Below are positions 29,466-43,543 of a stretch of 54,626 bases of DNA, in pieces. Each line of letters opens with the position of its first letter. The first letter of the stretch is position 1. Made by a program: the position numbers and the translations under genes. Location of the stretch: the NCBI GenBank assembly GCA_903934875.1, contig CAIZPP010000013.1:1-54626 (forward strand), read 5' to 3'. The stretch is from an uncultured Methylococcaceae bacterium (GTDB taxonomy: Bacteria > Pseudomonadota > Gammaproteobacteria > Methylococcales > Methylococcaceae). The notes below the pieces were generated by a model. It did no database searches. It was given only the letters and a program-made list of their open reading frames with translations, and was not told where the DNA came from.

Positions 29466-29914
29466 TAGAAACAAAGGGCACTTAATTCGGGGGATAGCTC
29501 GTCCATGCTTTCTTCTGCCAGCCATTCGTCGCGGCTGCGATTCCAGATATCCTCATCCCATATTTCAAATTTGTTTCCTTGTCCTACCAAAACGACACGT
29601 TTTTCTAGCCCAGCGAAATTCCGCAAAGGTTCTGCGATCAAAACCCGCCCTTGGGCATCCATCTCGCATTCGGTGGCATGGCCGATCAGCAAGCGCTGCA
29701 AGCGTTTGGCTCGTTTGTCCAAACTGGAAAGTTTGCTTAATTTGCGTTCGATCTCCTCCCACTCGGGCAGGGGATAGAGCAACAGACATTTGTCCGGGCT
29801 GACAGTCAACACCAATTGCTGGTCACAACATTCCCGCAACTCCGCCCGATAGCGAGTTGGCACGGCCAATCGGCCTTTTTCGTCAATGTTGATTGGATTA
29901 AAGCCTCGCAGCAA
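29465..29914 (-). CDS. mraZ: transcriptional regulator MraZ, probable TTG start
   Basis: 149-residue AbrB-fold DNA-binding protein that represses its own dcw promoter. Two SpoVT-AbrB domains: LRGFNPINIDEKGRLAVPTRYR at the start and CEMDAQGRVLIAEPLRNFA near residue 85. A TTG at 29914 gives MLRGFNPINIDEKGRLAVP, aligned with the usual MFRG-type N-terminus, with GGGG about eight bases upstream. The in-frame ATG at 29965 would add 17 residues, but it coincides with the predicted transcription start and runs through the MraZ boxes, so it could only work as a leaderless start. Confidence 0.93.
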   Translation of the reverse strand: MLRGFNPINIDEKGRLAVPTRYRAELRECCDQQLVLTVSPDKCLLLYPLPEWEEIERKLSKLSSLDKRAKRLQRLLIGHATECEMDAQGRVLIAEPLRNFAGLEKRVVLVGQGNKFEIWDEDIWNRSRDEWLAEESMDELSPELSALCF

Positions 29915-29927
29915 CGCAGAACCCCGT

Positions 29928-29962
29928 TCCCATTTTTTACCATTTTTCCCCACCTCTTCCCA
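29928..29962 (-). promoter_or_regulatory. four MraZ-binding boxes
   Basis: On the minus strand TGGGA (29958-29962), TGGGG (29948-29952), TGGTA (29938-29942) and TGGGA (29928-29932) recur with an exact 10-base period. In E. coli MraZ binds TGGGN repeats spaced five bases apart just downstream of the mra promoter. The third box here is the weakest match. Confidence 0.88.
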
Positions 29963-29970
29963 CATAGGGC

Positions 29971-29999
29971 AATATAGAAACCATCCCAACTTAAGTCAA
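29971..29999 (-). promoter_or_regulatory. sigma-70 promoter of the dcw operon (Pmra)
   Basis: On the minus strand TTGACT (29994-29999) and TATATT (29971-29976) are separated by exactly 17 bases. Predicted transcription start about 29964, immediately before the first MraZ box. No other strong promoter was noticed in the 18 kb of closely packed genes downstream. Confidence 0.85.
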
Positions 30000-30170
30000 G
30001 CGGGATTTTCAAGCTTTTACAATTTCGTCATGATTCAGATAATTTATCGTATAATTTCAGAGGAATGTAAACCGTCAATTGAATTGTGGCGGTGCTAACC
30101 CAAGCACTATCACTGGCTCTCACTGCATATTCTCATTATCCCCATGCCACTTGAAAAATGGTTGATTGGT

Positions 30171-30253
30171 AGGATGGGCAAAGGCCGCTAGGCCGTGTCC
30201 ATCAAAATCGCGCCGACCAAGATAGGCGCGTACTGGTCGCCTTTGCCCATCCT
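30171..30253. repeat. palindromic intergenic repeat
   Basis: Arms aggatgggcaaaggc (30171-30185) and its exact inverse (30239-30253) flank a 53-base core that has its own short inverted pieces (ggcgcg/cgcgcc). Resembles a small non-coding mobile or REP-type element. Confidence 0.75.
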
Positions 30254-30303
30254 TCTACAGAAAGGCCGCCCTATAAGCCAAAACCCAGTCCTCTCCCGTA
30301 TCA

Positions 30304-30327
30304 CTCCACGACATTCAAACCGTGGAG
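30304..30327 (+). promoter_or_regulatory. hairpin masking the ribosome site of the FHA gene
   Basis: CTCCACG (30304-30310) pairs perfectly with CGTGGAG (30321-30327), loop ten bases. The right arm contains the GGAG ribosome-binding site placed seven bases before the ATG at 30335, so the stem would hide it. Possible translational control; a role is inference. Confidence 0.5.
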
Positions 30328-30334
30328 ACTTCCA

Positions 30335-31897
30335 ATGAAACTTACCACCTTGATCGACCGCAATAGCCACTGCCGAGAATGGGGTGCTTTGGCTGGCGAA
30401 ATTCGCGATGCACTGGTTGATGCCTTAGAGAGCTATCCGACACTAGACGCTAATGGTTATATTAGCTTGCTGGTTGAAGTTGCCGAGCAGTTGTTACCGA
30501 TCAACGCCACTAATCCCGACTTGCTTAGGTATTCCATTTGGTTGCAGCAGTGCGGCATCAGGCATGCCTTTCTCAGTCTGCGCGGACGCAAGGCACACCG
30601 CCTATTGGTGCAATTCGTACCGGCGATGAGCCAGCAACCGCCAGCCGAGCGTATAACCCAGCAGACCGGGCTAAAAAGCCCAGGTGTTTTTCTGTCAACC
30701 AAGAGGATCAAACCTATGCAAGCAACAGCTAAACCTGTCCCCGCTAAAAAACGCAGTCTGTGGGAGCGCCTGTTCCCTCGAAGGGATGAATGGAACGATG
30801 ACAATACAGATGCAACAACAACCCCCGGCAACGGCATCGAAACCGCACCCGCACTTGAAAATAGTTCTTGGCTGGAAAGTTCCCACCGTGCCTTGACCGA
30901 AGCGACCACCAACTTTATACGCGAATTTGTCGAACCGCTGCACAGACTGAATCCTAGTGTGATGTTTAGTGTACGCTCGGTCTGTGTCGGCATGGGCGAA
31001 GACGCTTCGCCTTGCCTTGAAGCATGGGAAAAGCTGCCGCTGCAAGTTCGTAACGGCACAGCCAAAATCTTGATGGAAAAGGCTCAAGGTGCAAGCGAGC
31101 AGCTCTACCTTGGCCAGTTTTACGGGTTGTCCTTCGATCTTGATGTCAAACTAATGGAGGGGCAAAGTGTGCGTACGTTGCTCGCCTGCGATGGCAGGCG
31201 CGTTCAGCTTCGCTTTCGCTTCGACGGCGATTACCTTGAACGGAACACTCCAGTGCTGATGCCACAGAAAAAACCTGAACCATCGTTTAGCATCGAACGG
31301 GCGACAATACCGTTGGGGCTGGTTCCACTGGACGAAGAAAGCAGCATCGCCGTCGAATCGCCTCCATGCTCAGCCCATACTGATATCCCACGGGCCAAAC
31401 CCCCAACCGAAAAGCCCGCCAGAACAGAGACCGCGAAAGCCGAAACCCCACTGGTTTCGACCAAACCCGTCCAACCAATCAATATCCAAAAATTCATTAA
31501 CAAAGGCGAGACTATGTTAGTCAGTCAGCGCCGCAAAGTCATCGCTCGATTGACTATCCAGCCTTATAGCGGTGATGAAAAACAGACGGATATCCGCGAA
31601 GGCGGCTTGCCTTATGTCATAGGCCGCGAACCTGGGCAAAGCGGCTACAACATTGCCCCTGACGAAGCGCCTCCGGGTACTGGTGGTGCCTGTTCGCGGC
31701 GACATTTAGTGTTGGAGTCTTTCGACGCGCGCAGTGGGCAGTTCCATGTGCAAAACCACGCCCACAGCCGCAACGGCACCTACGATACCATAGGCCGCAG
31801 TTTGCCCGAGCGTTTCCTCTGGCGCAATGGCGAATGGCTGAGTTTGGGCGGGAATGAAGCGGGTTCGGTGCGCATCCGCTTGGAGGCAGTGTCGTGA
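30335..31897 (+). CDS. FHA-domain phosphothreonine-binding protein
   Basis: 520-residue cytoplasmic protein. The C-terminal FHA domain (about 400-515) shows its conserved points: YVIGREPG (Gly430, Arg431), CSRRH (453-457) and HSRNGTY (about 477-483), which read phosphothreonine. The first 100 residues form an unrecognised helical domain. About 105-175 and 310-390 are low-complexity Pro/Lys/Thr-rich linkers, the latter rich in Thr/Ser as a kinase target might be. About 180-300 is a separate folded domain of unknown type. The stop overlaps the PP2C GTG start (GTGA). With the PP2C and kinase behind it, it likely acts as the phospho-reader of this signalling set, like FhaB in mycobacteria. Confidence 0.85.
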   Translation: MKLTTLIDRNSHCREWGALAGEIRDALVDALESYPTLDANGYISLLVEVAEQLLPINATNPDLLRYSIWLQQCGIRHAFLSLRGRKAHRLLVQFVPAMSQQPPAERITQQTGLKSPGVFLSTKRIKPMQATAKPVPAKKRSLWERLFPRRDEWNDDNTDATTTPGNGIETAPALENSSWLESSHRALTEATTNFIREFVEPLHRLNPSVMFSVRSVCVGMGEDASPCLEAWEKLPLQVRNGTAKILMEKAQGASEQLYLGQFYGLSFDLDVKLMEGQSVRTLLACDGRRVQLRFRFDGDYLERNTPVLMPQKKPEPSFSIERATIPLGLVPLDEESSIAVESPPCSAHTDIPRAKPPTEKPARTETAKAETPLVSTKPVQPINIQKFINKGETMLVSQRRKVIARLTIQPYSGDEKQTDIREGGLPYVIGREPGQSGYNIAPDEAPPGTGGACSRRHLVLESFDARSGQFHVQNHAHSRNGTYDTIGRSLPERFLWRNGEWLSLGGNEAGSVRIRLEAVS

Positions 31898-32706
31898 GTG
31901 CCGATGAGGTTAAATCGGGCATGAAAAGGCGCGGTGGCTGGACGGTTGCCTGGGCGCAAATCACTGGCGTCCATCACAGCGTTTGTGAGGATCGTCTGGC
32001 GCATCGCGTCTTGAAGCGGGAAAACGCAGGGGGCTTGTGCCTCGCTGTGGCGGATGGTGTCGGTGGCGGTGCGCGCGGGGATGTCGCTGCCGAAGCACTG
32101 GCTCGACATTGTGTGGATGTGCCAGCGGCGCTGATAGGCAAATCCGACACGTTGGCGCAATGGATGCGTATGGCCGAAGGGCAGGTGCAACTGCGTTTGC
32201 GCGAGGTGACTTTTTCGCCTGGCGCGGCGACGTTAGTAGCGGCATGGCTTGATGCCGATGGCAAAGGCCATTTGATGCATGTCGGCGATTGCCGTGCCTA
32301 CCGCTACGGCAATGGCCTGTTGGAAGTATTGACCGAAGACCAAACTTATACACACATTGGTGAAAAGCCACCCGAAGGCGTGCCCACCGAGGCCCCGGCA
32401 CGGATGGTTGGCACCGGCTGCATGGGCGAACCGAACCTGCGCCCATTAAGCCTATCTTCAGGCGAAACTTTATTGTTATGTAGTGATGGCTTGCACCGGG
32501 ATTTGGAGACAAGCAAAATAGCCGAAACCCTACTATCAACATCGAAATCCTTGCAAACCGTTTGCATCGCTTTGGTCAACGCCGCCCGTCAGGCGGGGAG
32601 CGAGGATGACATTACCGTGCAGTTGGCGCGGCGGAGCATTGGCGTTGGGATAGCGGCGCAAGGGTGGCGATGGCTTTTAGACTGGTCAAGAAGGCTGATG
32701 ACATGA
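31894..32706 (+). CDS. PP2C-family Ser/Thr phosphatase
   Basis: 270-residue PPM/PP2C phosphatase (PstP/Stp type catalytic domain without membrane anchor). Motifs: CEDRLAH near residue 31, VADGVGGGARGD (metal-binding Asp54, Gly55), HVGDCRAYRYG, LLCSDGLHRD and GSEDDITVQLA. GTG start at 31894 overlaps the FHA stop, and its own stop overlaps the kinase start as ATGA, so the three genes are tightly coupled. Predicted to dephosphorylate the kinase and its targets. Confidence 0.9.
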   Translation: MSADEVKSGMKRRGGWTVAWAQITGVHHSVCEDRLAHRVLKRENAGGLCLAVADGVGGGARGDVAAEALARHCVDVPAALIGKSDTLAQWMRMAEGQVQLRLREVTFSPGAATLVAAWLDADGKGHLMHVGDCRAYRYGNGLLEVLTEDQTYTHIGEKPPEGVPTEAPARMVGTGCMGEPNLRPLSLSSGETLLLCSDGLHRDLETSKIAETLLSTSKSLQTVCIALVNAARQAGSEDDITVQLARRSIGVGIAAQGWRWLLDWSRRLMT

Positions 32707-34592
32707 CAGAAACTCCACTCAAACAACAAGCGAAACCAAGCAATGTTGCGGAAAAATCTCTGTGGGAACAGGTTTTGAATGATTTCTTGCCCAAGCGTCT
32801 GATAAAGCGTGAGGAAAAGCAGGCTGGCGTGGTGTTGAGCCGGGAGTATGACGTTCAGCGCGGCACGGCTGTGTGGACTAAAATCTATGAAGACCGGAAA
32901 GACGGCGAAAGCCTTAGCATCTTCAACGAATGGGAATCTATACTAATTAGCCGTCTAAAGAGCGCTGGCGTCAGCAAATGCTATCAGTTGGTCGAGTCCT
33001 CCATTGTCGCCAGCCGGTTGAACCAACCCGGCCAAACCACGATCCGCACCCGCCATGTCGGCCCCGACCTGAACCGGCTGTGCCGACGCTGGGATAAGCA
33101 GCGTTTAAGATGGAGTTACTTAAAGCTGTGGGGCAACCGCAAGCCAATAGCACATCCTTTCGTTGCTCCCGCCAATTATTTGAAGCTGGCAAAAGGAACA
33201 TTGGAGGCTTTGGAGCAATTGCACCAGAAGTCGGAAGGCTTTGTGCACTGTGATCTAAACCCTGGCAATTTGGCATTGACGGTAAGGGCGGAAATGATCG
33301 ACACAGCACGAGGCGAAGCGTTATGCCTGACCCCGGACTGGGACCATCCGTTCTTGATTGATTTCGGCTATTCGCTGTGCCGGGCTATACAGCCGCTTAC
33401 CACGCTGCCATTAGACCCGGCTAGTGGACGTTTGTCCGAACATCTGCGTGATTGCCTTAATCAGATAGAAGCCGACAGCAAGAAAAAGCATAGGCTGACC
33501 GACCAACTTTGGGAGGAAAAGCGGTTTGACAAATCCTTTTGGAGCAGTTGGCGCGACAATGCGTTGTCGCGTTTTAGAACTATCGATTGGCGCGAGGACA
33601 TTTTCCAATTGGGCTTTTTATTGCGTGAGATTCGCGACGAGTGGGGTGGCGGCGAACTTGTCCAATGTTCAAACCATCATGATATGAATAGTCTGATATG
33701 GAATTTGCCCGAACAAATGCTGACGTATGGTGAGGCCAGCGAAGTGGGAACCCCCGAGCCGACAAACTTACCTCACCGTGCATGGATTCAAGCCATCGAC
33801 CATGCCTTGGTTCATGCAGATAGGGCGGATGGATTCGAGCAAATGATACTGTATCGTGCCGATCACGATGAAGTCTATGCATTTTGGATAGGATTGCTAC
33901 ATTATCAAACACTTGCCGGAATAATGAGCCAGATTTCACCAACCTGGCTCAACAGAAAACTTGTTGATTCTAAGTGGTGGCTAGCTTGGAAATGGGGTGT
34001 GCTAGTTATGGTTATCACGGTAGTACTCGCCGCAGTCAACGGTTTGACGCAATTCTCTAATCATAATAAAAAGATAATAAATATGGTGCAACCCCCTCCT
34101 GTTTCTTTGAAACTTGAGTGTCCCTCAGAACTGGACCGTCAAGGAATGGCAACTTTTGAGAGTGATGCCAACGCATTATGGTTGAGCAAGCAGAAGAACG
34201 AAAATAACTCTGCTGCTGTTTGGCAAGCAACACGCGATGGTTTAGCCTCAGCCTTCTCACGCAAAAAGCCAAGCACCCAGGGGGCCAATGAAAAAACTAA
34301 AGCTTTGCAATGCCTTGGCATCATGTCCAAGCTTGGGGATGCCGATGCGGGGGTAAAGCTAGAGGAATTTAAGATCAATTATTACAAAAACTTAGACCAT
34401 CTTTGGGAATGGCAAAAAAAAGCAGAGGCGGACGACAGGGGGCAATTTCCTGTGGAATTGTTTAAACTTTGGAAGGAGGATTTTTTGTCATTTAAAGCGG
34501 CTGGCTATGCCAACGAGGCACACGAAGCCATGCTCTTCCTGGACAAACTTCCAGTTTATCTCCCGCCGAATGTAGTGGATACCAACTATTAG
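32703..34592 (+). CDS. membrane-anchored Ser/Thr protein kinase
   Basis: 629-residue kinase-like protein. Catalytic loop HCDLNPGN at 182-189 (Asp184, Asn189) and DFG at 220-222 are intact. The N-lobe is poorly conserved, with a likely Lys in AVWTKIYED and a Glu in FNEWESIL. A membrane helix at about 430-448 (WGVLVMVITVVLAAVNGL) is followed by a mainly helical domain of about 180 residues, probably periplasmic, without PASTA repeats. ATG at 32703 overlaps the PP2C stop (ATGA); an upstream in-frame start at 32664 is less likely. By topology it could sense the envelope and phosphorylate division or wall-synthesis proteins, but no substrate can be read from sequence. Confidence 0.85.
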   Translation: MTETPLKQQAKPSNVAEKSLWEQVLNDFLPKRLIKREEKQAGVVLSREYDVQRGTAVWTKIYEDRKDGESLSIFNEWESILISRLKSAGVSKCYQLVESSIVASRLNQPGQTTIRTRHVGPDLNRLCRRWDKQRLRWSYLKLWGNRKPIAHPFVAPANYLKLAKGTLEALEQLHQKSEGFVHCDLNPGNLALTVRAEMIDTARGEALCLTPDWDHPFLIDFGYSLCRAIQPLTTLPLDPASGRLSEHLRDCLNQIEADSKKKHRLTDQLWEEKRFDKSFWSSWRDNALSRFRTIDWREDIFQLGFLLREIRDEWGGGELVQCSNHHDMNSLIWNLPEQMLTYGEASEVGTPEPTNLPHRAWIQAIDHALVHADRADGFEQMILYRADHDEVYAFWIGLLHYQTLAGIMSQISPTWLNRKLVDSKWWLAWKWGVLVMVITVVLAAVNGLTQFSNHNKKIINMVQPPPVSLKLECPSELDRQGMATFESDANALWLSKQKNENNSAAVWQATRDGLASAFSRKKPSTQGANEKTKALQCLGIMSKLGDADAGVKLEEFKINYYKNLDHLWEWQKKAEADDRGQFPVELFKLWKEDFLSFKAAGYANEAHEAMLFLDKLPVYLPPNVVDTNY

Positions 34593-34619
34593 TAAGCTAT
34601 TTAAACGAGGATGAGTAAA

Positions 34620-35264
34620 ATGGAGGCTATTCAAAATATAACCTTCCAAAATATTTGGATATGCACTGCTATTTTGTGGTTTGCTTGTGGGATTATCAAT
34701 CCAGTGCCTGCGTTAGCGGGAGAAATATCCAGGGAAGAAGCAGCGAAAGAAAGGGTTATTAATTATTATATTAAAGATGCTCAACAAGCTATTGCAAAGG
34801 GTGATACCACTAGTGCCGTGAAAAATTATGACCATATTTTAAAGTTGGATCCAAAAAATAGTGACGCGGTAACTGGTAAACATGATATCCAAGCCGGAAT
34901 AGAAGCTAAAATATTGGCAACTAAGATTAAACATATGCTTCAGGAAGCGCGACAATATCTGGATGACCATAATTTGAGTAAAGCAGAAAAAAAATACCGC
35001 GAAGTTATTAAACTAGCCCCTAACAATAGCGAAGCAAATAACGGAGTTTTAGAAATTATCAAACAGGGTAAAAAACCATCTCCTCTATATAATAAACCTA
35101 AACATGAAGAGATTGTAAGATCAGTTAAGCAGAAACTTCATGAACCCAAGCAGAAACCCGTGATTGTGGTCAAAAAATCAATACCTAAAAGGGCCATTGA
35201 CAACAAACTACCGGAACTTGATCCACCTGAGCCGTATCATCCATTATCTGAAAGGAGCCAATAA
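34620..35264 (+). CDS. exported TPR-like protein
   Basis: 214 residues. A signal peptide (about 1-34, ending PVPALAG) is followed by two tetratricopeptide-like units, about 48-82 (AQQAIAKGDTTSAVKNYDHILKLDP) and 96-130 (YLDDHNLSKAEKKYREVIKLAP), and a Lys/Pro-rich tail. The ATG at 34620 has GAGG at good spacing; the ATG at 34611 is too close to it. It starts 27 bases after the kinase. Markedly AT-richer than the kinase and phosphatase genes. Probably a periplasmic scaffold; function unknown. Confidence 0.75.
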   Translation: MEAIQNITFQNIWICTAILWFACGIINPVPALAGEISREEAAKERVINYYIKDAQQAIAKGDTTSAVKNYDHILKLDPKNSDAVTGKHDIQAGIEAKILATKIKHMLQEARQYLDDHNLSKAEKKYREVIKLAPNNSEANNGVLEIIKQGKKPSPLYNKPKHEEIVRSVKQKLHEPKQKPVIVVKKSIPKRAIDNKLPELDPPEPYHPLSERSQ

Positions 35265-35268
35265 TAAA

Positions 35269-36477
35269 ATGAATATAAATAGAAAAGCAAGACTTATATT
35301 TGTTGTTTTGTTACTATTAGAATTATTAGGGTGTGCCAGATTAGACGCTGCTATCCATTTAAACCATTCTGCAGAACTAATAAATACAGGCGAATATAAG
35401 TCTGCCATTAGCGAGGCTACACAGGCGATAGCAATTAAGCCGGATTACCACTTGGCTTACATCGACAGAGGACTGGCTTACACTCTCGCACGAGAATATG
35501 ATAATGCCCGAGCAGATTATATCTATGCAATAGCATTAAAGCCAGAGGAGGCTGTTGCTTATTTAAATTATGCGAATCTTCTCTATTATCTTAGAAAGAC
35601 ACCAGAGGCTATAGAAGTTACTCAAAAATTCTTGAGAATACACCCTAAAAGTATGCTGATGAAAATAGGTTTAGCAGGTGCATATGAGGCTCAAGATAAA
35701 AATAATGAAGCCTATGACCTGACCTCTGATGTGTTATCTAAACTTGAGATATCAGGTATTGAAGATGTAGAAGAACTAAAATATATTATTAAAGATAACT
35801 TCTTTACTCATGTATATGGACTACATGCAGTGGTTGCTGCAGCTTTGCATAAAAACAATGAGGCCTCAAATTCGATTGCCAAAGCGAAGACCTACCGCAA
35901 CGATCTTACAACTCACTACTATATGGCAAAGATTTATTATATCAAAGGTAATTGGCAACAGAGTGTAAATGAATTAAAAAATGGTTATATTCAGGCCACT
36001 AAGGAACAACTCGATTCACCTTTAGGCTTTGAGTCAAGTTTCCTTTTAGGAAATAGTTACTTTAAAATGGGCGATATGCAGAAGGCCATAGAGGCTTATG
36101 AACACTTCCTGTCGGCGAATAAATTTGATAAAAAGGCTTTCTTAAATCTAGGACTCGCTTATGAAAAATTAGGCTATAATAGGTCAGCTATCGATAACTA
36201 TACATCTGCATTCAACTTGGATAACAATCTCTTGGAAGCTCTCACTTATAGAGGCAGTATCTACAATAAGAAAAAGCAATATAGTGACGCGATTTCCGAC
36301 TTCTCGACGGTGCTAGACCAGCAACCGCGCAATACCGATGCCTTGCTTGGCCGCGCCTACGCGCAGTGTATGAACGGAAATCGCAGTATGGCAAAAAATG
36401 ACTTGGTTGCTGTTTTAACGATAGAACCCGGGAATAACCAAGCAAAGAAAGCTTTAACAGAATGTGGCAATCGATAG
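35269..36477 (+). CDS. TPR-repeat lipoprotein
   Basis: 402 residues. The signal peptide ends in a lipobox LLGC with the acylated Cys at 22. About eight tetratricopeptide units follow, such as AISEATQAIAIKPDYHLAYIDRGLAY, AIEAYEHFLSANKFDKKAFLNLGLAYEKLG and AISDFSTVLDQQPRNTDALLGRAYAQ. AGGAG lies 12 bases before the ATG at 35269, and the gap to the previous gene is four bases. Most of the gene is AT-rich, but from about 36290 the composition turns GC-rich like the rest of the window. TPR lipoproteins commonly scaffold cell-wall synthases, so a role with the nearby SEDS-PBP pair is possible. Confidence 0.8.
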   Translation: MNINRKARLIFVVLLLLELLGCARLDAAIHLNHSAELINTGEYKSAISEATQAIAIKPDYHLAYIDRGLAYTLAREYDNARADYIYAIALKPEEAVAYLNYANLLYYLRKTPEAIEVTQKFLRIHPKSMLMKIGLAGAYEAQDKNNEAYDLTSDVLSKLEISGIEDVEELKYIIKDNFFTHVYGLHAVVAAALHKNNEASNSIAKAKTYRNDLTTHYYMAKIYYIKGNWQQSVNELKNGYIQATKEQLDSPLGFESSFLLGNSYFKMGDMQKAIEAYEHFLSANKFDKKAFLNLGLAYEKLGYNRSAIDNYTSAFNLDNNLLEALTYRGSIYNKKKQYSDAISDFSTVLDQQPRNTDALLGRAYAQCMNGNRSMAKNDLVAVLTIEPGNNQAKKALTECGNR

Positions 36478-36515
36478 GGGACTACGGAGGTAAAGATGCT
36501 TTCGATTTACTCCCG

Positions 36516-36543
36516 CATCGGGTTACATAGCGCTAACCCGATG
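36516..36543. terminator. 10-bp stem between convergent genes
   Basis: catcgggtta (36516-36525) pairs exactly with taacccgatg (36534-36543), eight-base loop, 38 bases after the TPR lipoprotein gene. AT-rich sequence follows. Likely the end of the FHA-to-TPR transcript, possibly acting in both directions. Confidence 0.55.
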
Positions 36544-36572
36544 TATGTAAATAAATTTTGAGTCAACACAGC

Positions 36573-36602
36573 GGTTGTGCGAATAAATTCGCACCTACAA
36601 CC
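36573..36602. repeat. REP-like hairpin
   Basis: ggttgt/acaacc outer arms and gtgcgaat/attcgcac inner arms (36577-36584, 36587-36594) with a two-base loop form a near-perfect hairpin. A short dispersed-repeat-type palindrome; no gene lies between 36478 and 36661. Confidence 0.6.
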
Positions 36603-36661
36603 AATTCATCTCGCTTCGCTTCATGCGGGCTACATTTCTTAACTTAATGGCAGTGCCTCTA

Positions 36662-37687
36662 TCAGTACCAACTACCCACAGGCTTCAGCATTTCCATGAT
36701 ATCCTCGCGGCGGGGGTGCACTTGGATATAGGCGTAAACAGCCAGTTTCCATCGACCGACAGTGGCCTTGGGTATGCCTAAGGCGTTCCCCAATTCTTGG
36801 TCTGTCAAATCACCAGTCTTGACCAGAGCCTCCAAGGTTTTACGGTGATTCTCCGTCAACAGGGTGTGTGTTTTATTGCCCTCGCTGTCTGTGACCAGCA
36901 CTGTTTTGCCGACCATTTCCCTAGCCAATTGGCCGACAACATTGGATAGTTGATCGACGCGGAGCAATGAGGACGCACTCTTGGCATTGGAATCTTTTAG
37001 CTGGTGGATCAAGTCGGTCTCGGGCTTGTCTGACCCCTCTGTCCCGCCTTGGTCCGCTTGCAGCCATTTTTGCTGATTGGCTTCCTTATCGCGCAGATTG
37101 CGCAGGGCATTTTGCAAGGCCCGGTGTACCCATGTCGTGACACTGGCCCCACCGGACTCACTCCAACCCGCCAGAATGCCGCCTTGTTTCTGCCATTTGG
37201 CAAAGACTTCTTGCACGGCTTCGGCGGCGGTTTCAAGCGGCAGGCCGTAGCATAATGCCAAGCTGGCGGCTAGTTTGAGCATTCTGGGGTGAAGTGCCTC
37301 AGCCAGGGCGTTGGTCTCCTGTTTGCGCTGACCGCTGGTCCGGTATTCCCGCAAGAGCAAAGCCAGCTTGGCGTTGTCGGCTTCGCGTGCCGACTGGTTC
37401 GCTTCAGGCAAGGCTAATGCGTCCAATTCCGCTTTGATGGCATCGTGTATCATCCATTCTTCCGACAATCCCGCACACAGTCGCAAAATATCCCCGTCCA
37501 AACTTTTCAAGATTTGAGTGCGCAGTTGTGCCGAGTTTGTCCCGGTTTTGACAGCTAGTTTGCTCAGTTCTCTATCAAGAATCTGGTTGACGGCGGCAAG
37601 CAGTTGCCCTGCTGATGTTGCGGAAGGCTGGCTTTGCCATAATTGGTGAAGTTCAGAAATATGCCTAGAGGCTTGTGACATGGCCAT
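36662..37687 (-). CDS. sigma-70-family-like regulator
   Basis: 341 residues. The middle (about 150-215) resembles sigma region 2: ALCYGLPLETAAEAVQEVFAKWQKQGG followed by VTTWVHRALQNALRNLRDKE, the spacing seen in ECF sigma factors. The C-terminus (about 270-330) ends in a helix-turn-helix, LTDQELGNALGIPKATVGRWKLAVYAYIQ, like region 4. An N-terminal helical domain of about 110 residues is extra. It is larger and more diverged than a standard ECF factor, so it may be a specialised sigma factor. It is divergent from the SEDS gene (178 bases apart), an arrangement that suggests control of that pair. ATG 37687, with 37681 as alternative. Confidence 0.6.
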   Translation of the reverse strand: MAMSQASRHISELHQLWQSQPSATSAGQLLAAVNQILDRELSKLAVKTGTNSAQLRTQILKSLDGDILRLCAGLSEEWMIHDAIKAELDALALPEANQSAREADNAKLALLLREYRTSGQRKQETNALAEALHPRMLKLAASLALCYGLPLETAAEAVQEVFAKWQKQGGILAGWSESGGASVTTWVHRALQNALRNLRDKEANQQKWLQADQGGTEGSDKPETDLIHQLKDSNAKSASSLLRVDQLSNVVGQLAREMVGKTVLVTDSEGNKTHTLLTENHRKTLEALVKTGDLTDQELGNALGIPKATVGRWKLAVYAYIQVHPRREDIMEMLKPVGSWY

Positions 37688-37865
37688 GATTGGTGCCTTG
37701 GGGTTTGGGGTATTGCCTATTTATACGGTCAACCTGTTGAGTTTGACTCATGGATTTGAGCAGGTTTTTTGCAAATGAAATGTTATGCTTGAACTGCGCT
37801 TTTCGACTGAGCCAATTGTAATGCCGAAACCTTATTACGGGCATCTTTTACAGAGGTGTCTTGCG

Positions 37866-39578
37866 ATGAATGATCGATCTTATCCGAATAAGAGGCTGGC
37901 CGCTGCCGGTTATTGCCTATTGGAGTTTTTCTTGACCGCCAGTGCGGCATGGGTTCTTTGGGTGCTGGCACAGCCCTTGGCTTTGCCGGGCATTTCTGAA
38001 GGTTTGGGCCAGCGTTATGCCGCCGATGGAATGGCCGTTTGGCAAGCTTGGCCTGCCCATCCCGATTGGGTTTTGCCGCTATTACCCAAGCCAGCCCGCG
38101 CTCTGTGGCTGAACCGTCATGCCGGTTTGGGGCTGGCTGTCGCGGCGGCGGTTGGCTGGCTGGCTTTGTGGGTGGCGCGTCGGCAGTGGCGCGGGGCGGC
38201 GTGGGTTTGCATGGCGCTATGGCTGATGGTTGCGGCGGTAATGCAGGTTTTTGGCTGGCCAGCGGTGGTTTGGGGGGCGGTAAGCGGGTTTTGCTGCCTG
38301 AATTACATCGCGCTTGGGCTGCTTCACCGGCCTCGCCCGTCGTTGCGTGTCTTGCGTAGCACCTCGTTGACTGCGGCTTTTGGCTGGCCGGGCTGGGTGC
38401 TTTTTAGCGGCATCGGGTTACTGTGGGTGAGTGATTTTGCTGCACGGGGCCCGGTAAAATGTGCGTTTCTAGGCCTTTATCAGGCCGACGCGTTGTGGCT
38501 ATCGAACCTGTTGCTCTTATTGGTCGCAGCAGGCCGGGGCGGTTTGATGGTGTGCTTCGCTAGGTTGGCTTCGGGTTTGTACGAATTTTCACGGCGGCGG
38601 CGGGCATCGGGTGTGTTGATCGGGGCAGGGCTGGGATTAGCCTTGTCGCTGGGTTGGTTGGGGCGGGCTGAGGATAAACTTTGGTTGCCGGGTTTGGCCA
38701 GCCCACATATTAGCGGCGAGTTATTGCGGTCTTGGGCCTGTTTGTCCTGCGCCTTGTTTGCCTACCGAGTCGGCGAGTGGGGTGCTTCGCCTGCACGGGC
38801 GCAACGGGCTTTGCTGGGGCTAGGCTGCGTGGGTGGCTTGGTGGCCGTGGGCTTGGTTGTGTCCGGCGACACCGGGCCTGGCCTGGTGATGTTTTTGGCA
38901 GGGGTTCCGACTTTTGGTTTGCCTTGGCTTTATAGGCTGTTACGCTGTCGTTGGGTCAGCCGGTCTTGGCTGTTGGCCTTAGTGCTGGGATTGGCAGGTT
39001 TTGCGTCGTGGTCGTATTCGGTGGAGCAAGTGGCTCCTGCCATCAGCTCACTGGCGAAGGAGCGGGAGTATACCTTAAATAATCCTTTCCATGCCGCAAG
39101 CCCCTATCTGGCACAACTACGTTGGCTGTTGGATGCCTCGCCAGTATTTGGATTTGGATTGGGGCGGGTGCCTTGGTGCGGCGCTATGGCGCTGGTTGGC
39201 GCAAAGCCTTGCACGGATGGTTCGGGCGCACCTCGGCAGATGGCTTCGGATTATGCCACGGCGGGTTTGAGTGCGGTGTTGGGTATGCCGGTTGCACTGC
39301 TAAGTTTAGCCGGTTTATTGACTTGGCTGGTCAGTTTGGCTGTTTGTCGGATTGAACTTGGCGCACCGCCTTGGGCTAGATTGCAGGCTTGGGTTGTGTT
39401 GGCCTTTGCACTGTGCGATTTGGCACAGGTGTTTATCACGGCGGGGGCATCATTTGGCCTGTTGCCGCTCACTGGCGTGACCTTGCCCCTTCTCGGTTAT
39501 GGTGGCGCATCTCTGTGCTTTAACGCCTTGTGGCTGGGTTTGGCTTTGAATCCGGCGGACCGGCGGGGGCAGCCATGA
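37866..39578 (+). CDS. second SEDS-family (RodA/FtsW-like) glycosyltransferase
   Basis: 570-residue, strongly hydrophobic protein, much longer than FtsW (400). The SEDS core is in the C-terminal 300 residues: SGDTGPGLVMFLAG (about 333-346), the extracytoplasmic MASDYATAGLSAVLG with Asp462 at the position of the essential SEDS Asp, and LPLTGVTLPLLGYGGASL (about 533-550). The N-terminal 270 residues add several helices not found in FtsW, partly like the long actinobacterial RodA form. ATG 37866 has GAGG nine bases upstream; in-frame starts at 37785 and 37821 are possible. The stop overlaps the next gene as ATGA. Predicted to polymerise lipid II with the transpeptidase that follows. Confidence 0.85.
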   Translation: MNDRSYPNKRLAAAGYCLLEFFLTASAAWVLWVLAQPLALPGISEGLGQRYAADGMAVWQAWPAHPDWVLPLLPKPARALWLNRHAGLGLAVAAAVGWLALWVARRQWRGAAWVCMALWLMVAAVMQVFGWPAVVWGAVSGFCCLNYIALGLLHRPRPSLRVLRSTSLTAAFGWPGWVLFSGIGLLWVSDFAARGPVKCAFLGLYQADALWLSNLLLLLVAAGRGGLMVCFARLASGLYEFSRRRRASGVLIGAGLGLALSLGWLGRAEDKLWLPGLASPHISGELLRSWACLSCALFAYRVGEWGASPARAQRALLGLGCVGGLVAVGLVVSGDTGPGLVMFLAGVPTFGLPWLYRLLRCRWVSRSWLLALVLGLAGFASWSYSVEQVAPAISSLAKEREYTLNNPFHAASPYLAQLRWLLDASPVFGFGLGRVPWCGAMALVGAKPCTDGSGAPRQMASDYATAGLSAVLGMPVALLSLAGLLTWLVSLAVCRIELGAPPWARLQAWVVLAFALCDLAQVFITAGASFGLLPLTGVTLPLLGYGGASLCFNALWLGLALNPADRRGQP

Positions 39579-41671
39579 TCGCACTGAAACCGCAACAGTT
39601 TCCCGTTGTGCGCGCCGCCGTGCTGATATTGGCTGCGATGGTATTAACCGGCATTGCCGTGTTGCTATGGAAGGCCAAGCAAAGCCATTTTGACGTTGAT
39701 GACCATCATGTGGATGGCGTGGTTTTCGAGGGCTTGGAATGGTTGGCGGAAAACATCCGTCCAGGCATTGACCCAAGCACAGAAGGCTTGGCATTGAACT
39801 GCAAGGATAAACGGCAAATTCGCCATGTCGCCGTGCTGAACACCCGTTTGGCAGGGTTGCCCCAACCTATTCATGTAGACTCTATTGCAGAACTGGATTG
39901 CGTCCAAGCGTCAATGGCGGACAAGGCGGCCGCGTGGCTATTGCGACAGGGCAAAGATTCGTCTGATTTGCTATCTTTGCTGCAATCGCCAAGAATTTGG
40001 GAGCGCGAATTGGCTCAGCGCGACCCGTTCCGCTTGCCGGGTTGCATGTACATCAGAGGCGAAGCGTTGAGCGATTCCGGTGCTTGCACGGGCGGGGCGG
40101 GTTGGCGAGCGTCCATTCCTGCCGATTGGCCACCCCAATCCGAGAGCTTGTTGGTCAGTTTGGCGTTTCAACGTCTAGCCTTGCGTGGTAAGGTGGAAAA
40201 TTTGCACCGCCACGAAGTGGCCGGACTGGTCACACCGTTGTGGCAAGGCAGCAACCAATATTTGAGCTTGGACAGTACCGTGCAGGAGAAGGCGCAGGCA
40301 ACTGCGGCCTGCTATGCTGGGGATATGACAGCTTGCGCTCGCTGCCCTTGGTGCAATCGACGCAGTGCAGCAGACATGTATGAAGGTGCGCGGGCGCGGA
40401 TGCTCGGTGTGCTGGTGGTCGATGTGCGAACTGGGTCTATTCAAGCCATAGCCAGTGTCCATACGCCGTGTTTTGCGGCCCGCCATGGCGGGGCGGCGGC
40501 AGAAGGCTGCCCAGAATTGCCCGGCTTGGCGATTGCCCAGAGATGGAAATTGAACAACCACGCTTGGCAGGCAGCGATGCCAGGGTCATTGACGAAACTG
40601 ATCACGGCGGCGGCGTTGTTGGAGTCGGACATCCCTCAACAAACCCGCGCAGTATTGCCGGATTGGATCACGCGCAGCGACACAGAGGCGTTCATCGATG
40701 CGGCCTTGTGCAAGGACCAAGGCTTTGCCGCCGACTGTGCCCGCCGCCGTGCGGCTGCTGTCCAAGCAATGGCGGAGGCTGTGGGTTGGAATACTCAATG
40801 TGGCAATGCAGGCGGCTGTGCCAAGTATGAGATGCTGTCGGGCGGTTTGTTCGCCCAGCCGCGCTATGTCGTGCATAACGGGCAGTTTTTGCTCAATTTG
40901 CAAACTGATACTTTAAAATTGAACCCTGCCGCGTCGCAAGATTGTTACCAAAATGGGGTAAAAGAACGTTGGCGCGGTTGCCACGGTGAAGATTTGGTCA
41001 ATCTCATCGCCGAATATTATGGCCAAGGCAACGCGTTAGCGAGTCCTGTGGGTGTAGGCAACGTGTTATTGCAACTGGCCGCCGCCGAGCTTGGTAGGCA
41101 TTATGCTCCAGTTGTGCATCTGTTGGCGCAAGTGGATGGTGAATCAGTTCACCCGGCGGCAAAGACGGCAATGCGGCCCGAAACGGCGCAAACTCTGCTG
41201 GTCGGCATGGCGCAAACCCATATGAGAGGCACGGCCCATGCAGCCTGTTTGCAAGCTGCTGAACGTGGCGGCGTGTTGGATTGTAAGAAAGGCAATGCGG
41301 GCTTGCGCATCGCTGGCAAGACCGGCACACCGCTGTTCCCGGCGGATGGCATGACATTGCCGCAGTGGCGCGACTTCTGCCACTCTATCGAGCGCGAACT
41401 GGCCGAATCTAAACTTGGCCAAATCCGGCGAGAACATTTACTCCACAAGAAAGCGACCTGTGGCTTGTCGCCTTATAAATGGTACGCCAGCCTTGCCGGG
41501 CCTGCGGGTGGTAGCTTTGAAAAAGCCGTCGTGGTTTTGGCCGAGCGCAATTGGAACCGCAACACTGGCCGGGTGGACAGCGTTGATGACAAGGGCGCAA
41601 ACGTCGCCGCCGAAGTAGGTCTGGCAGTGTTAAACGCACTGTATAGCCCCGCTGACACATCTTGGAAGTGA
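39575..41671 (+). CDS. divergent class B penicillin-binding protein
   Basis: 698-residue transpeptidase coupled to the SEDS gene by an ATGA overlap. Membrane helix about 15-32; the transpeptidase domain has SLTK (Ser338-Lys341), YGQG (482-485) and KTGT (582-585). The S-x-N motif is not evident. The SxxK-to-KTG distance is about 245 residues, some 55 more than in FtsI here (188). The excess is a Cys-rich insertion (CKDQGFAADC, QCGNAGGC), and other Cys pairs occur before it (CARCPWC), suggesting disulfides or a metal site. SEDS-bPBP coupling is the standard layout of wall synthases. The unusual domain suggests a special wall structure or growth mode; loss of activity cannot be excluded without the second motif. 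Confidence 0.82.
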   Translation: MIALKPQQFPVVRAAVLILAAMVLTGIAVLLWKAKQSHFDVDDHHVDGVVFEGLEWLAENIRPGIDPSTEGLALNCKDKRQIRHVAVLNTRLAGLPQPIHVDSIAELDCVQASMADKAAAWLLRQGKDSSDLLSLLQSPRIWERELAQRDPFRLPGCMYIRGEALSDSGACTGGAGWRASIPADWPPQSESLLVSLAFQRLALRGKVENLHRHEVAGLVTPLWQGSNQYLSLDSTVQEKAQATAACYAGDMTACARCPWCNRRSAADMYEGARARMLGVLVVDVRTGSIQAIASVHTPCFAARHGGAAAEGCPELPGLAIAQRWKLNNHAWQAAMPGSLTKLITAAALLESDIPQQTRAVLPDWITRSDTEAFIDAALCKDQGFAADCARRRAAAVQAMAEAVGWNTQCGNAGGCAKYEMLSGGLFAQPRYVVHNGQFLLNLQTDTLKLNPAASQDCYQNGVKERWRGCHGEDLVNLIAEYYGQGNALASPVGVGNVLLQLAAAELGRHYAPVVHLLAQVDGESVHPAAKTAMRPETAQTLLVGMAQTHMRGTAHAACLQAAERGGVLDCKKGNAGLRIAGKTGTPLFPADGMTLPQWRDFCHSIERELAESKLGQIRREHLLHKKATCGLSPYKWYASLAGPAGGSFEKAVVVLAERNWNRNTGRVDSVDDKGANVAAEVGLAVLNALYSPADTSWK

Positions 41672-41701
41672 GTCCAAAAAGACTAAGTCTCATTATTATA
41701 A

Positions 41702-42228
41702 AGCGGTAATGATTACAGCCTGTTAAAGCCAGTGTACAGTATATGGCTGTTGGCGGAAAACCTGTTGCCCGATGAAACCGATTATGCCCATGAGTATAAA
41801 CTGCAAAACCGCATAGGCCGCAGCTTGACGGATTTGGGCGGCATCCATCTGATGGAACTGAAATTGTCACGGCGGAACGGATCGAAACCGAGGAACAACG
41901 CTGGCTAAAGTTTTTCAAAGACGGCGAGGAACTGGACGAAACCGCGCTACCGGACTGGATGAACACAGAAGAAATGAGGCAAGCTATGAACACCTTGAAA
42001 CTGTTTTCCGAGAAAGAACGCGACTACCACGCCTACCAGGCGCGGCAAAATTATCTGCGCGAGCAGCGTACTATTCAAATTGAGAGAGAGGAAGATCATC
42101 GGGAAATGGAGAGGATTAAGCAGGAAATGGAACAAGCCCAACAGGATTTAGAGCGAGAACGGACGGAGAAACAAGCCGCACTTGCAGAAATTGAACAGCT
42201 CAAAGCATTATTGCCTCAATCAACTTAG
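41702..42228 (+). pseudogene. Rpn-family (PD-(D/E)XK) nuclease remnant, C-terminal half
   Basis: Reads NDYSLLKPVYSIWLLAENLL and then YAHEYKLQNRIGRSLTDLGG in one frame (about 41702-41860), then IVTAERIETEEQRWLKFFKD and MNTEEMRQAMNTLKLFSEKE in another to the stop at 42228. This is the second half of a PDDEXK_2 transposase/nuclease with its coiled-coil tail. The N-terminal catalytic half is missing and a frameshift lies near 41858-41864. It belongs to a different subgroup from the intact gene at 4945. The last 90 codons (from ATG 41959) remain open but are unlikely to work alone. Confidence 0.8.
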
Positions 42229-42236
42229 CCAGTCCT

Positions 42237-42267
42237 GTCGGGCGCGTCTTTTTGCGTTGCGCCCGAC
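42237..42267. terminator. 9-bp GC-rich hairpin after the Rpn remnant
   Basis: gtcgggcgc (42237-42245) and gcgcccgac (42259-42267) pair exactly, loop 13 bases containing five T. Terminator-like, without a clear following T-run. Confidence 0.45.
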
Positions 42268-42323
42268 GGAACTTCAAGGTGAAAGTGTCGTAGAATTGTT
42301 CCTAACCCTCGGTAGGTGTATGA

Positions 42324-42797
42324 ATGGGCCAAAATATTCCTATCAGCCTCCGTTTCGGTCGAAATGTCCGGCTGACACATCATGTGCGTAACCGCATGGC
42401 GAAAAGAGGCGTGTCTGAAGCGATGTTGTTCGACTTGATTGAAACGGGTGAAATCCGCCATGCGTCCGCAACGGATATTTGGATATTCAAACATTACGGC
42501 GATAGATCGGATAATCTGGTTTGCGCTGCGGTTTTATTGGCCCAGGCAGTTATAGTCAAGACTGTTCTGGTGGATTGGCGATTAGGAGGAGGACAAACCA
42601 TGAAAATGAACTACGACCCCGGTGACGATATTCTGGTAATCGAGTTTAACAAAGATAGCATCGTCCGTGATATTTCCCTGAACTGGAACGTCAATATCGG
42701 CATGACAGAGCAAGGCATTGGCGAAATTGTCATCCTTGACGCGAAAAAGGCCGGACTGTTACCCGTGGAGATTGGCGATGAATTGCGGGCGGCATGA
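42324..42797 (+). CDS. DUF4258-DUF2283 fusion, toxin-antitoxin-like
   Basis: 157 residues joining two families usually encoded by adjacent genes. Residues about 10-88 are DUF4258-like (LTHHVRNRMAKRGVSEAMLFDLIETGEI ... KTVLVDWRL), a small RelE-like presumed toxin. Residues 93-157 are a DUF2283 protein (MKMNYDPGDDILVIEFN ... GIGEIVILDAKKAGLLPVEI), the presumed partner or antitoxin. There is no stop between them, although a strong ribosome site AGGAGGA lies before the internal ATG at 42601. Function as a toxin-antitoxin pair is known only by association. Confidence 0.7.
   Translation: MGQNIPISLRFGRNVRLTHHVRNRMAKRGVSEAMLFDLIETGEIRHASATDIWIFKHYGDRSDNLVCAAVLLAQAVIVKTVLVDWRLGGGQTMKMNYDPGDDILVIEFNKDSIVRDISLNWNVNIGMTEQGIGEIVILDAKKAGLLPVEIGDELRAA
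42601..42797 (+). CDS. DUF2283 protein from an internal start
   Basis: 65-residue DUF2283 protein predicted from the internal ATG at 42601, preceded by GGAGGAGGACAAACC, the best ribosome site in this region. It would be made in addition to, or instead of, the fused product. Normal DUF2283 proteins are about this length. Confidence 0.6.
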
Positions 42798-42827
42798 ACG
42801 CGGTAAGGCGTATTCGTAAGGCCGTAA

Positions 42828-42852
42828 GGCGGAACCAGGGATGGGTTCCGCC
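42828..42852. terminator. 9-bp hairpin after the DUF4258-DUF2283 gene
   Basis: ggcggaacc (42828-42836) pairs with ggttccgcc (42844-42852), seven-base loop, 31 bases after the stop. Possible terminator or palindromic repeat. Confidence 0.45.
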
Positions 42853-42945
42853 GAATGGGAACTATGTATAAGTCTCACTAATCCGGGCAGATGTGTCCAC
42901 TTTTCGGCGGATCAAATCCCTGTATCCGCCCTACAACAAACCACC

Positions 42946-43041
42946 ATGAAACACCGCATAGACCCAAAAATAGATTGCGTATTCAAGGCATTGCTCGGCT
43001 CGGAGGAAAACCGCAATCTGCTGGTGCATTTTCTTTTTGAT
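42946..43041 (+). pseudogene. Rpn-family nuclease remnant, N-terminal 31 codons
   Basis: ATG at 42946 opens with MKHRIDPKIDCVFKALLGSE followed by NRNLLVHFL, the typical N-terminus of a PDDEXK_2/Rpn nuclease. Homology stops there, where a palindromic repeat (43049 onward) begins; the frame then runs into repeat DNA. The rest of the gene is gone. Confidence 0.7.
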
Positions 43042-43048
43042 TTTTGCT

Positions 43049-43170
43049 GGTTCCCAAGCTCCGGCTTGGGAACCCTTGTCTTGCAAGCTCCTGCTTGGCC
43101 GTTCTTCGGGAAGCTGGAGCTTCAAAAACCCCATTCCCATGCAGGAACTTGGGGACGAGCAACAAGGAAG
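43049..43170. repeat. palindromic repeat interrupting the Rpn fragment
   Basis: ggttcccaagc (43049-43059) and its exact inverse (43064-43074) form a hairpin with a four-base loop, followed by further imperfect palindromes (gaagctggagcttc near 43120). The element begins exactly where the Rpn homology ends. Confidence 0.7.
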
Positions 43171-43203
43171 TTGTTTTCGTCCGTATCCTAAGTGGGCCAG
43201 CCC

Positions 43204-43275
43204 GTGTAGGATGCGCTGAGCTTGCGAAGCGCATCAATCGCGACCGATGCGCCTCGTGCCTCGGCGCATCCCACG
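43204..43275. repeat. palindromic repeat
   Basis: gtaggatgcgc (43206-43216) and a near-inverse gcgcatcccac (43264-43274) flank inner inverted pieces (gcgcatc/gatgcgc). A second REP-type family, abutting the PIN-like fragment. Confidence 0.65.
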
Positions 43276-43368
43276 GACCTAGATTGCTTTGATCTGTTGG
43301 CGGATTTTGGGCGTGTCATCGTTCCCGAAATCGTTTGGCAGGAAGTGCAGCGCCATCGAAATAAGTAG
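43276..43368 (+). pseudogene. possible PIN-like toxin fragment
   Basis: Thirty codons reading CFDLLADFGRVIVPEIVWQE and then VQRHRNK with a stop at 43366. The pattern (short helix, then V-V-P-x-x-V-x-x-E) resembles an internal piece of PIN/DUF3368-type toxins. No start codon and no catalytic Asp set. Low-confidence remnant. Confidence 0.35.
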
Positions 43369-43404
43369 GTAACCATATATTTTGTAACTTTTCGGCTGGT
43401 AGGT

Positions 43405-43488
43405 GGTTAAGCCATTCGTGGTGAGTTTGTCGAACCATGAACGGCTTAACCGTCCATCCTTCGACAAGCTCAGGACGAACGGTTAAGC
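43405..43488. repeat. double hairpin repeat before recC
   Basis: ggttaagcc (43405-43413) and ggcttaacc (43443-43451) form one hairpin, and the following 37 bases repeat a related sequence in inverse (cttcgacaagctcaggacgaacgg). Of the common bacterial type with a gacaagctcagga core. The 55 bases from here to recC hold no clear promoter. Confidence 0.65.
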
Positions 43489-43543
43489 TTTATTTTCTAG
43501 TTGTTAAAAAAACGCTATATCCGCCTAGGAATCAAGTTGCACT

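Follow-up and report, generated by a model that had tools for sequence, protein, structure and literature searches.

The DNA analysed here (the window, 54,626 nucleotides, GenBank contig CAIZPP010000013.1, labelled contig C13 of genome G000) comes from an uncultured Methylococcaceae bacterium, a gammaproteobacterial methanotroph (order Methylococcales) in the genus of Candidatus Methylumidiphilus, and carries an inserted island in which genes for a divergent SEDS protein and a divergent penicillin-binding protein (PBP) lie together with genes for an FHA-like protein and a PP2C phosphatase. To the interpretation that these four genes are the core of a mobile, phospho-gated module providing an extra peptidoglycan synthase, we give about an even chance. 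Genes were called from open frames and from scans with Pfam and NCBI family profiles, and overlaps were read directly from the sequence; every gene listed by the initial annotation was found as an open frame at the position given there. That annotation described the island pair as a second SEDS-PBP pair, which agrees with the presence of FtsW-FtsI but is an undercount, since besides FtsW-FtsI and the window pair G000 has a fused SEDS-PBP pair, on contig C279, the second module locus of this genome.

The principal evidence lies in the association of the signalling genes with the synthase genes. Six module loci were recovered from five genomes, all of them drafts, namely the window, contig C279 of G000, and one locus each in G025, G005, G006 and G104, that of G025 presumably being continuous across contigs C80 and C331, the ends of which carry the same PBP stretch. 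The loci were found with SEDS and PBP queries and then read for their neighbours: the SEDS protein was searched against 61 genomes, where most of the 59 positives are ordinary FtsW/RodA, and a PBP alignment was searched at E 1e-25 against the order, where five of the 311 genomes carry the module. FHA and PP2C genes accompany the SEDS-PBP pair at all six loci, in the order SEDS-PBP-FHA-PP2C at five and rearranged in the window. The SEDS, PBP, FHA and PP2C trees share one shape, and the pairwise identities of the four proteins, taken over 10 or 15 pairs, show correlations of 0.93-0.99 (the SEDS comparison excludes G005, which has only the end of that protein, the G025 PBP is an N-terminal piece, and the trees are unrooted). 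Because of these congruent trees and correlations, the four genes are judged, on sequence grounds, to be co-inherited as a unit. The link between signalling genes and the SEDS-PBP pair that the initial annotation drew from position is therefore upheld for FHA and PP2C, with a homologous kinase present at two of the six loci; the co-occurrence and tree comparisons that it had suggested gave neither genes that never occur together nor a chance juxtaposition, since FHA and PP2C are linked to the pair at 6/6 loci and the tree shapes are congruent.

Two subtypes can be distinguished, between which the proteins are about 20-39% identical. Subtype A (the window and G025) has a shorter SEDS protein, a single degenerate FHA-like region, a kinase and a divergently oriented sigma-like gene, whereas subtype B (C279, G005, G006 and G104) has a SEDS protein with an N-terminal extension and an FHA protein that has an additional FHA domain, recognised by Pfam matches in C279 and G005 and by alignment in G006 and G104. 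G104 belongs to another family, and its PBP is 53% identical to those of G005 and G006, while G000, although a genus mate of these two, has modules only 29-35% identical to theirs; this closeness points to either transfer or an old duplication with loss, both of which fit because the trees are unrooted. Beyond the order, evenly drawn samples of the class (369 genomes) and the phylum (398 genomes), searched at E 1e-20 with at most two candidates scored per genome, gave a match in the window genome only; a narrow pattern scan of genome contigs, which also reached beyond the sampled phylum, returned two loci, those of G006 and G005, and searches of plasmid and viral contigs gave no relative of the module. 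At the C279 locus (L004 12240 to L005 2039), SEDS and PBP form one natural fusion protein of 1599 residues, after which come genes for FHA, PP2C, TIR and a MoxR-like AAA, and downstream of the G006 module (L037 13370-19999) there are HmaB- and HmaC-like defence genes, the HmaB-like frame holding a REP-type transposase domain.

The position of the island is consistent with acquisition. It occupies 30041..43540 (borders approximate), between mraZ (29465-29989, reverse strand) and recC (43544-46819, forward strand), and DNA similarity between the window and G005 ends near 30040 and restarts near 43540. Among the five relatives read for this comparison (G001, G002, G003, G005 and G006, not G004), the first four have mraZ and recC side by side in divergent orientation, and G006 has a different gene before mraZ at a contig end. 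Because the two genes are adjacent in relatives and about 13.5 kb apart in the window, the cassette, as judged from this comparison, either arrived at the mraZ-recC gap or was assembled in it. The initial annotation had treated the proximity of the dcw cluster as meaningful, a reading that we rejected in view of this insertion between genes that are neighbours in 4/5 relatives; no dcw gene was seen in the read stretches of the other five module loci.

The SEDS gene (37785..39578, forward strand) encodes a putative peptidoglycan glycosyltransferase of 597 aa, for which a later ATG at 37866 agrees better with the G025 start than does 37785. The protein matches PF01098 with 34.3 bits against a cut-off of 26.4 (E 1.8e-8), at residues 508-589 only, and alignment by hhalign of the five module SEDS proteins with eight FtsW/RodA fragments gives a probability of 95.4% and places the SDY motif (D489), which is invariant in 5/5 module SEDS proteins, on the canonical Asp of TDF, the catalytic-type residue of the fourth extracellular loop. 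The FtsW structures 25hr and 8bh1 match the window protein at E about 2e-8 (25hr, E 1.7e-8) with the same pairing of D489 and Asp, and D297 of E. coli FtsW is a putative catalytic residue according to the available excerpt of PMC8765783. By profile and catalytic-type Asp, the window protein is assigned to the SEDS family, with a match limited to its last third; its scores against the equivalog models are 45.8 bits for ftsW (cut-off, 337.5) and 31.8 bits for rodA (cut-off, 336.7). The whole SEDS fold has ten transmembrane (TM) helices, and hydropathy, a simple method, gives 8-12 segments in the five module proteins and 8 in one FtsW fragment. Near the catalytic-type Asp, C465 and C476 are invariant in 5/5 proteins.

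The PBP gene (39575..41671, forward strand) begins with an ATG that sits over the SEDS stop codon and encodes a transpeptidase of 698 aa, counted from that ATG, with a single N-terminal TM segment. The transpeptidase domain is the only one over the Pfam cut-off (PF00905, 25.4 bits versus 22.1; E 9.9e-6), and no class A glycosyltransferase domain was found. SxxK is present at 6/6 loci and aligned with that of FtsI/PBP2, and KTGT is present in the five full proteins and in the second G025 piece, so that the protein is best classed, by SxxK/KTG in its transpeptidase domain together with the lack of a glycosyltransferase domain, as a divergent class B-type PBP. As a separate observation, the PBPs of subtype A contain a Cys cluster, ACARCPWCN (around 40330 in the window), which, with C465 and C476 of the SEDS protein, might form disulphides or a metal site.

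Upstream of these, the FHA-like (30335..31897, 520 aa), PP2C (31894..32706, 270 aa) and kinase-like (32703..34592, 629 aa from its ATG) genes follow one another on the forward strand, the first two overlapping by 4 bases and the second and third through an ATGA at 32703. The overlapping stops and starts reported initially are thus confirmed for both junctions, and the SEDS and PBP genes overlap as well. The window FHA protein was assigned by a GR...SRRH...NGT motif in its one degenerate C-terminal FHA-like region, aligned to the corresponding region of the homologues at the five other loci, of which those of C279 and G005 match PF00498 at 1.1e-16 and 6.7e-15; motif and homologues therefore bear out the FHA gene of the initial annotation as FHA-like, but the window protein itself falls below Pfam detection. 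The PP2C Ser/Thr phosphatase, with no predicted TM segment, matches PF13672 (E 1.7e-16) and NF033484 (E 8.8e-26, yet under the equivalog cut-off), and its DGVGGG, GD and DDI motifs are invariant in the five aligned proteins (the G006 PP2C was not in the alignment). The kinase-like membrane protein, which consists of an N-terminal kinase-like part, one TM segment by hydropathy and a C-terminal part, is weak by profile (PF00069 E 0.026 in the window and 1.8e-4 in the G025 homologue, both below the curated cut-off); the two homologues share K73, E89/E91, HCDxxPxN and D(F/L)G. A comparison with the PDB by phmmer gave no usable match for the kinase, and profile scans gave no PASTA match in either protein, as the initial annotation had noted for the window kinase.

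The remaining island genes are less firmly tied to the core. The sigma-region-2-like/helix-turn-helix regulator of subtype A (36662..37687, reverse strand, divergent to SEDS) shows only weak profile similarity (TIGR02937, 1.2e-4, below cut-off) but has a homologue at the equivalent position in G025 (29% over 242 aa, 1e-20). Two TPR genes follow the kinase on the forward strand, one (34611..35264; PF07719, 1.1e-6) encoding a predicted signal/TM segment and the other (35269..36477; PF07719, 1.8e-26) a lipobox-like LLELLGCA. The pair (34611-36477) has 37.6% G+C, versus 52-58% for the other genes, and no tblastn match was obtained in the read stretches of the other module loci; for these reasons the TPR genes probably lie outside the module and are probably a separate acquisition, and we rejected them as core parts, contrary to the initial annotation, which had counted them as envelope members of the cassette. 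The remainder of the island (41672..43540) holds two open reading frames (ORFs), one with DUF2283 and a sub-threshold DUF4258 and the other without a Pfam match.

If the four-gene core is a phospho-gated synthase, a plausible working order would be as follows: (i) lipid II would be polymerised by the SEDS protein and the product cross-linked by the PBP, the two acting as a complex, which in C279 would be a single chain; (ii) a kinase, which subtype A encodes within the cassette and subtype B presumably elsewhere, would phosphorylate a partner in the cytoplasm; (iii) the FHA protein would dock on a phosphothreonine of that partner, so that synthase output would be gated by Ser/Thr phosphorylation; (iv) PP2C would remove the phosphate and reset the switch; and (v) in subtype A, the divergently encoded sigma-like regulator may control expression. 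The module would move as a unit and would serve synthesis on demand and not routine growth.

Several results weigh against this interpretation: (i) the SEDS protein outside its last third has mostly no SEDS-profile match; (ii) the AlphaFold models of the SEDS protein and the PBP are poor (mean pLDDT, 37.4 and 35.8), probably because the inputs held only 2 and 3 sequences; (iii) a clear SxN is lacking in the PBP, where the candidate position reads SxS or SxT, and the top PDB match of this protein, a class A PBP1b, is weak (E 0.042); (iv) the window FHA gene has no Pfam FHA match at E 0.1; (v) no homologue of the window kinase was found by tblastn in the read stretches of the four subtype B loci, where the G005 contig begins inside SEDS and ends shortly after PP2C and the G006 contig was read for 20 of its 24 kb; and (vi) the island yielded no identifiable mobility gene.

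Among the alternatives, the one that fares best, tentative and on the improbable side as it is, would make the module the response arm of a system for conflict or recognition, in which a hypervariable lectin-like sensor (FGE/CLec), varied by a diversity-generating retroelement (DGR), perceives a phage, a neighbour or a surface ligand and signals through an FHA/PP2C(/kinase) relay to SEDS-PBP wall synthesis or remodelling. DGR-type parts lie near the module at four of the six loci. At the G104 locus (L053 34-1550), the stretch directly upstream of SEDS contains a reverse transcriptase, an Avd gene (NF033474, 92.9 bits versus a cut-off of 80) and a template-like repeat in which AAC-type codons occur. 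In G025, FGE-domain genes flank the module at both ends (L036 8961-10208 and L052 6741-8180), one 17 bp after the kinase and the other before the sigma-like gene; their 120-nt repeats differ at 20 positions, of which 15 coincide with an adenine in the G104 template (28 A of 99; P 1.2e-6), and beyond the repeats the two genes become less alike. In G005 a caspase-FGE gene lies about 120 bp after PP2C, and another lies 2.7 kb upstream of the module in G006, with two opposite-strand ORFs between. Defence-type neighbours (the Hma genes in G006, TIR and MoxR-like AAA in C279) also favour such a role, and DGR-CLec sensors in conflict systems are described in the available parts of PMC10907252 and PMC7159879.

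Other results weigh against this reading. FGE matches are numerous in three of the genomes (51 in G000, 43 in G005 and 54 in G006, versus 12 in G025 and 0 in G104), so that some proximity is expected, the chance of an FGE gene within 3 kb of a locus being about 5% in the genus and 1.6% in G025. The template of the adenine test came from another genome and was chosen after the motif had been seen, and reverse transcriptase, Avd, template repeat and variable repeat are never all at one locus, the first two and a template-like repeat being in G104 and the variable-like pair in G025. A motif scan found no DGR part in the window island or on the C279 contig. PADLOC gave no SEDS or PBP match among the window genes and weak matches only for the kinase and PP2C; neither component of the vWA-MoxR ternary conflict system (VMAP/iSTAND) was matched among the eight window genes, and the MoxR-like AAA of C279 (bpMoxR below cut-off) has no accompanying vWA match. 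Separately, an FGE-domain match also occurs elsewhere in the window, at 6309-6677 (reverse strand). We regard the link between DGRs and the module as suggestive, and the full chain, in which retroelement-diversified recognition would throw an FHA/PP2C(/kinase) switch on a dedicated mobile SEDS-transpeptidase so that wall is built or armoured on demand against phage, predators or neighbours, as a shade more doubtful than the response-arm reading itself.

An unlikely alternative is that the module is a substitute elongation machine that permits growth without MreB-RodA-PBP2. It draws on the apparent state of G000, which has two module copies and in which RodA, PBP2 and MreB were not found; six of the seven genus genomes have all of these (RodA and PBP2 being named by family match and neighbourhood). 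When the mre-rodA region of G005 was used as a 12.3-kb probe, contig C152 of G000 was matched on both sides, the dacA and gatC matches lying about 120 bp apart on one contig (L098 490-630), and the 5.6 kb between these genes in the probe had no match listed in G000 among the 40 of 125 candidates scored. Because the dacA-gatC flank is found joined, mreBCD-mrdA-rodA seems to have been deleted in G000, within the limits of a contig from a metagenome-assembled genome; on the same ground we rejected a gap in the assembly as the most economical explanation of the absent operon, a misassembly being possible. Against substitution, the other four module genomes retain MreB, so that replacement is not a general rule, and G005 and G006, the two genus mates checked, also keep RodA and PBP2, so that the module is there additional to the ordinary Rod machine. 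MreB, present in 291/311 genomes of the order and in 220/228 good genomes, is also absent from seven other good genomes, none of which matches the module PBP; G000 is a single case, in which class A PBPs could suffice. A search for shape words in the available part of PMC8397446 gave no information on cell shape. The apparent loss makes G000 a natural test of life without the Rod operon, and it is the one observation that bears on the special cell shape, cyst or filament suggested by the initial annotation.

Least probable is a selfish or degenerating island whose enzymes diverge through decay and have no role in the cell wall, for although the module is rare and patchy, lies in an inserted island, and has a PBP without a clear SxN and a window FHA protein below detection, its frames are long and open, its gene starts overlap, and its catalytic motifs are kept across proteins as distant as those of the two subtypes.

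Returning to the mobile phospho-gated synthase, its interest lies in the fact that SEDS-PBP pairs are usually seen as core machines of division, elongation or sporulation, and here one appears to behave as mobile cargo would, being passed on together with phospho-signalling partners and occurring twice in G000, once as a natural fusion. The loci offer a small natural set in which to ask how a SEDS synthase could be gated by phosphorylation, with the fused protein as a candidate for structural work, and they hint at a possible tie between hypervariable recognition proteins and wall synthesis.

A combination of SEDS with FHA and PP2C was not found in the open-access literature (most subscription papers and preprints not covered), and the DGR term was not found among the matches listed for extra SEDS proteins. 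Listeria and Enterococcus (Firmicutes) reportedly have extra SEDS proteins (PMC6624303, PMC6686043, PMC12724132); set beside these by description only, the module is alike in being an additional SEDS copy and differs in that the pair comes with FHA-PP2C genes. The canonical RodA-PBP2 and FtsW-FtsI pairs share with it the coupling of a SEDS protein to a PBP, the conserved Asp (SDY aligned with TDF) and the SxxK and KTGT motifs. The module SEDS, however, matches RodA/FtsW only over the last third, has two invariant Cys near the Asp and, in subtype B, carries roughly 170-300 extra residues near the N-terminus; the module PBP is larger, and in C279 the two proteins are fused.

The nearest published frame for the DGR-type neighbours is that of DGR-linked conflict systems of multicellular bacteria, as presented in the available parts of PMC10907252 and PMC7159879. 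The module loci resemble them in DGR Avd and reverse transcriptase genes (one locus), FGE targets (three), caspase (two) and TIR plus MoxR-like AAA (one), but at the conserved core of the module stands a peptidoglycan-synthase pair, and PMC7159879 does not contain the word FtsW.

The closest parallel in gene content is the actinobacterial fhaB-pstP-rodA-pbpA-pknA/B locus, in which, according to the available excerpt of PMC6554272, pstP, rodA and pbpA are transcribed together, with genes for PASTA kinases and FHA proteins nearby. SEDS, PBP, PP2C and FHA genes are likewise clustered at all six module loci, and the membrane Ser/Thr kinase of that cluster has a counterpart at two of them. On the other hand, the actinobacterial locus is conserved throughout its phylum whereas the module is rare and patchy, PstP is a transmembrane protein whereas the window PP2C has no predicted TM segment, the module SEDS and PBP are divergent, and the genomes that carry the module also have FtsW-FtsI (checked within the genus) and, in G005 and G006, RodA-PBP2. 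The initial annotation had drawn the mycobacterial locus as a parallel; membership does not hold, with the SEDS protein far below the FtsW/RodA equivalog cut-offs and a kinase without a PASTA match. As compared by gene content and profile tests, the module thus resembles the actinobacterial pstP-rodA-pbpA locus in some of its parts without being a member of it, and by analogy that locus serves as the model for the proposed phospho-switch.

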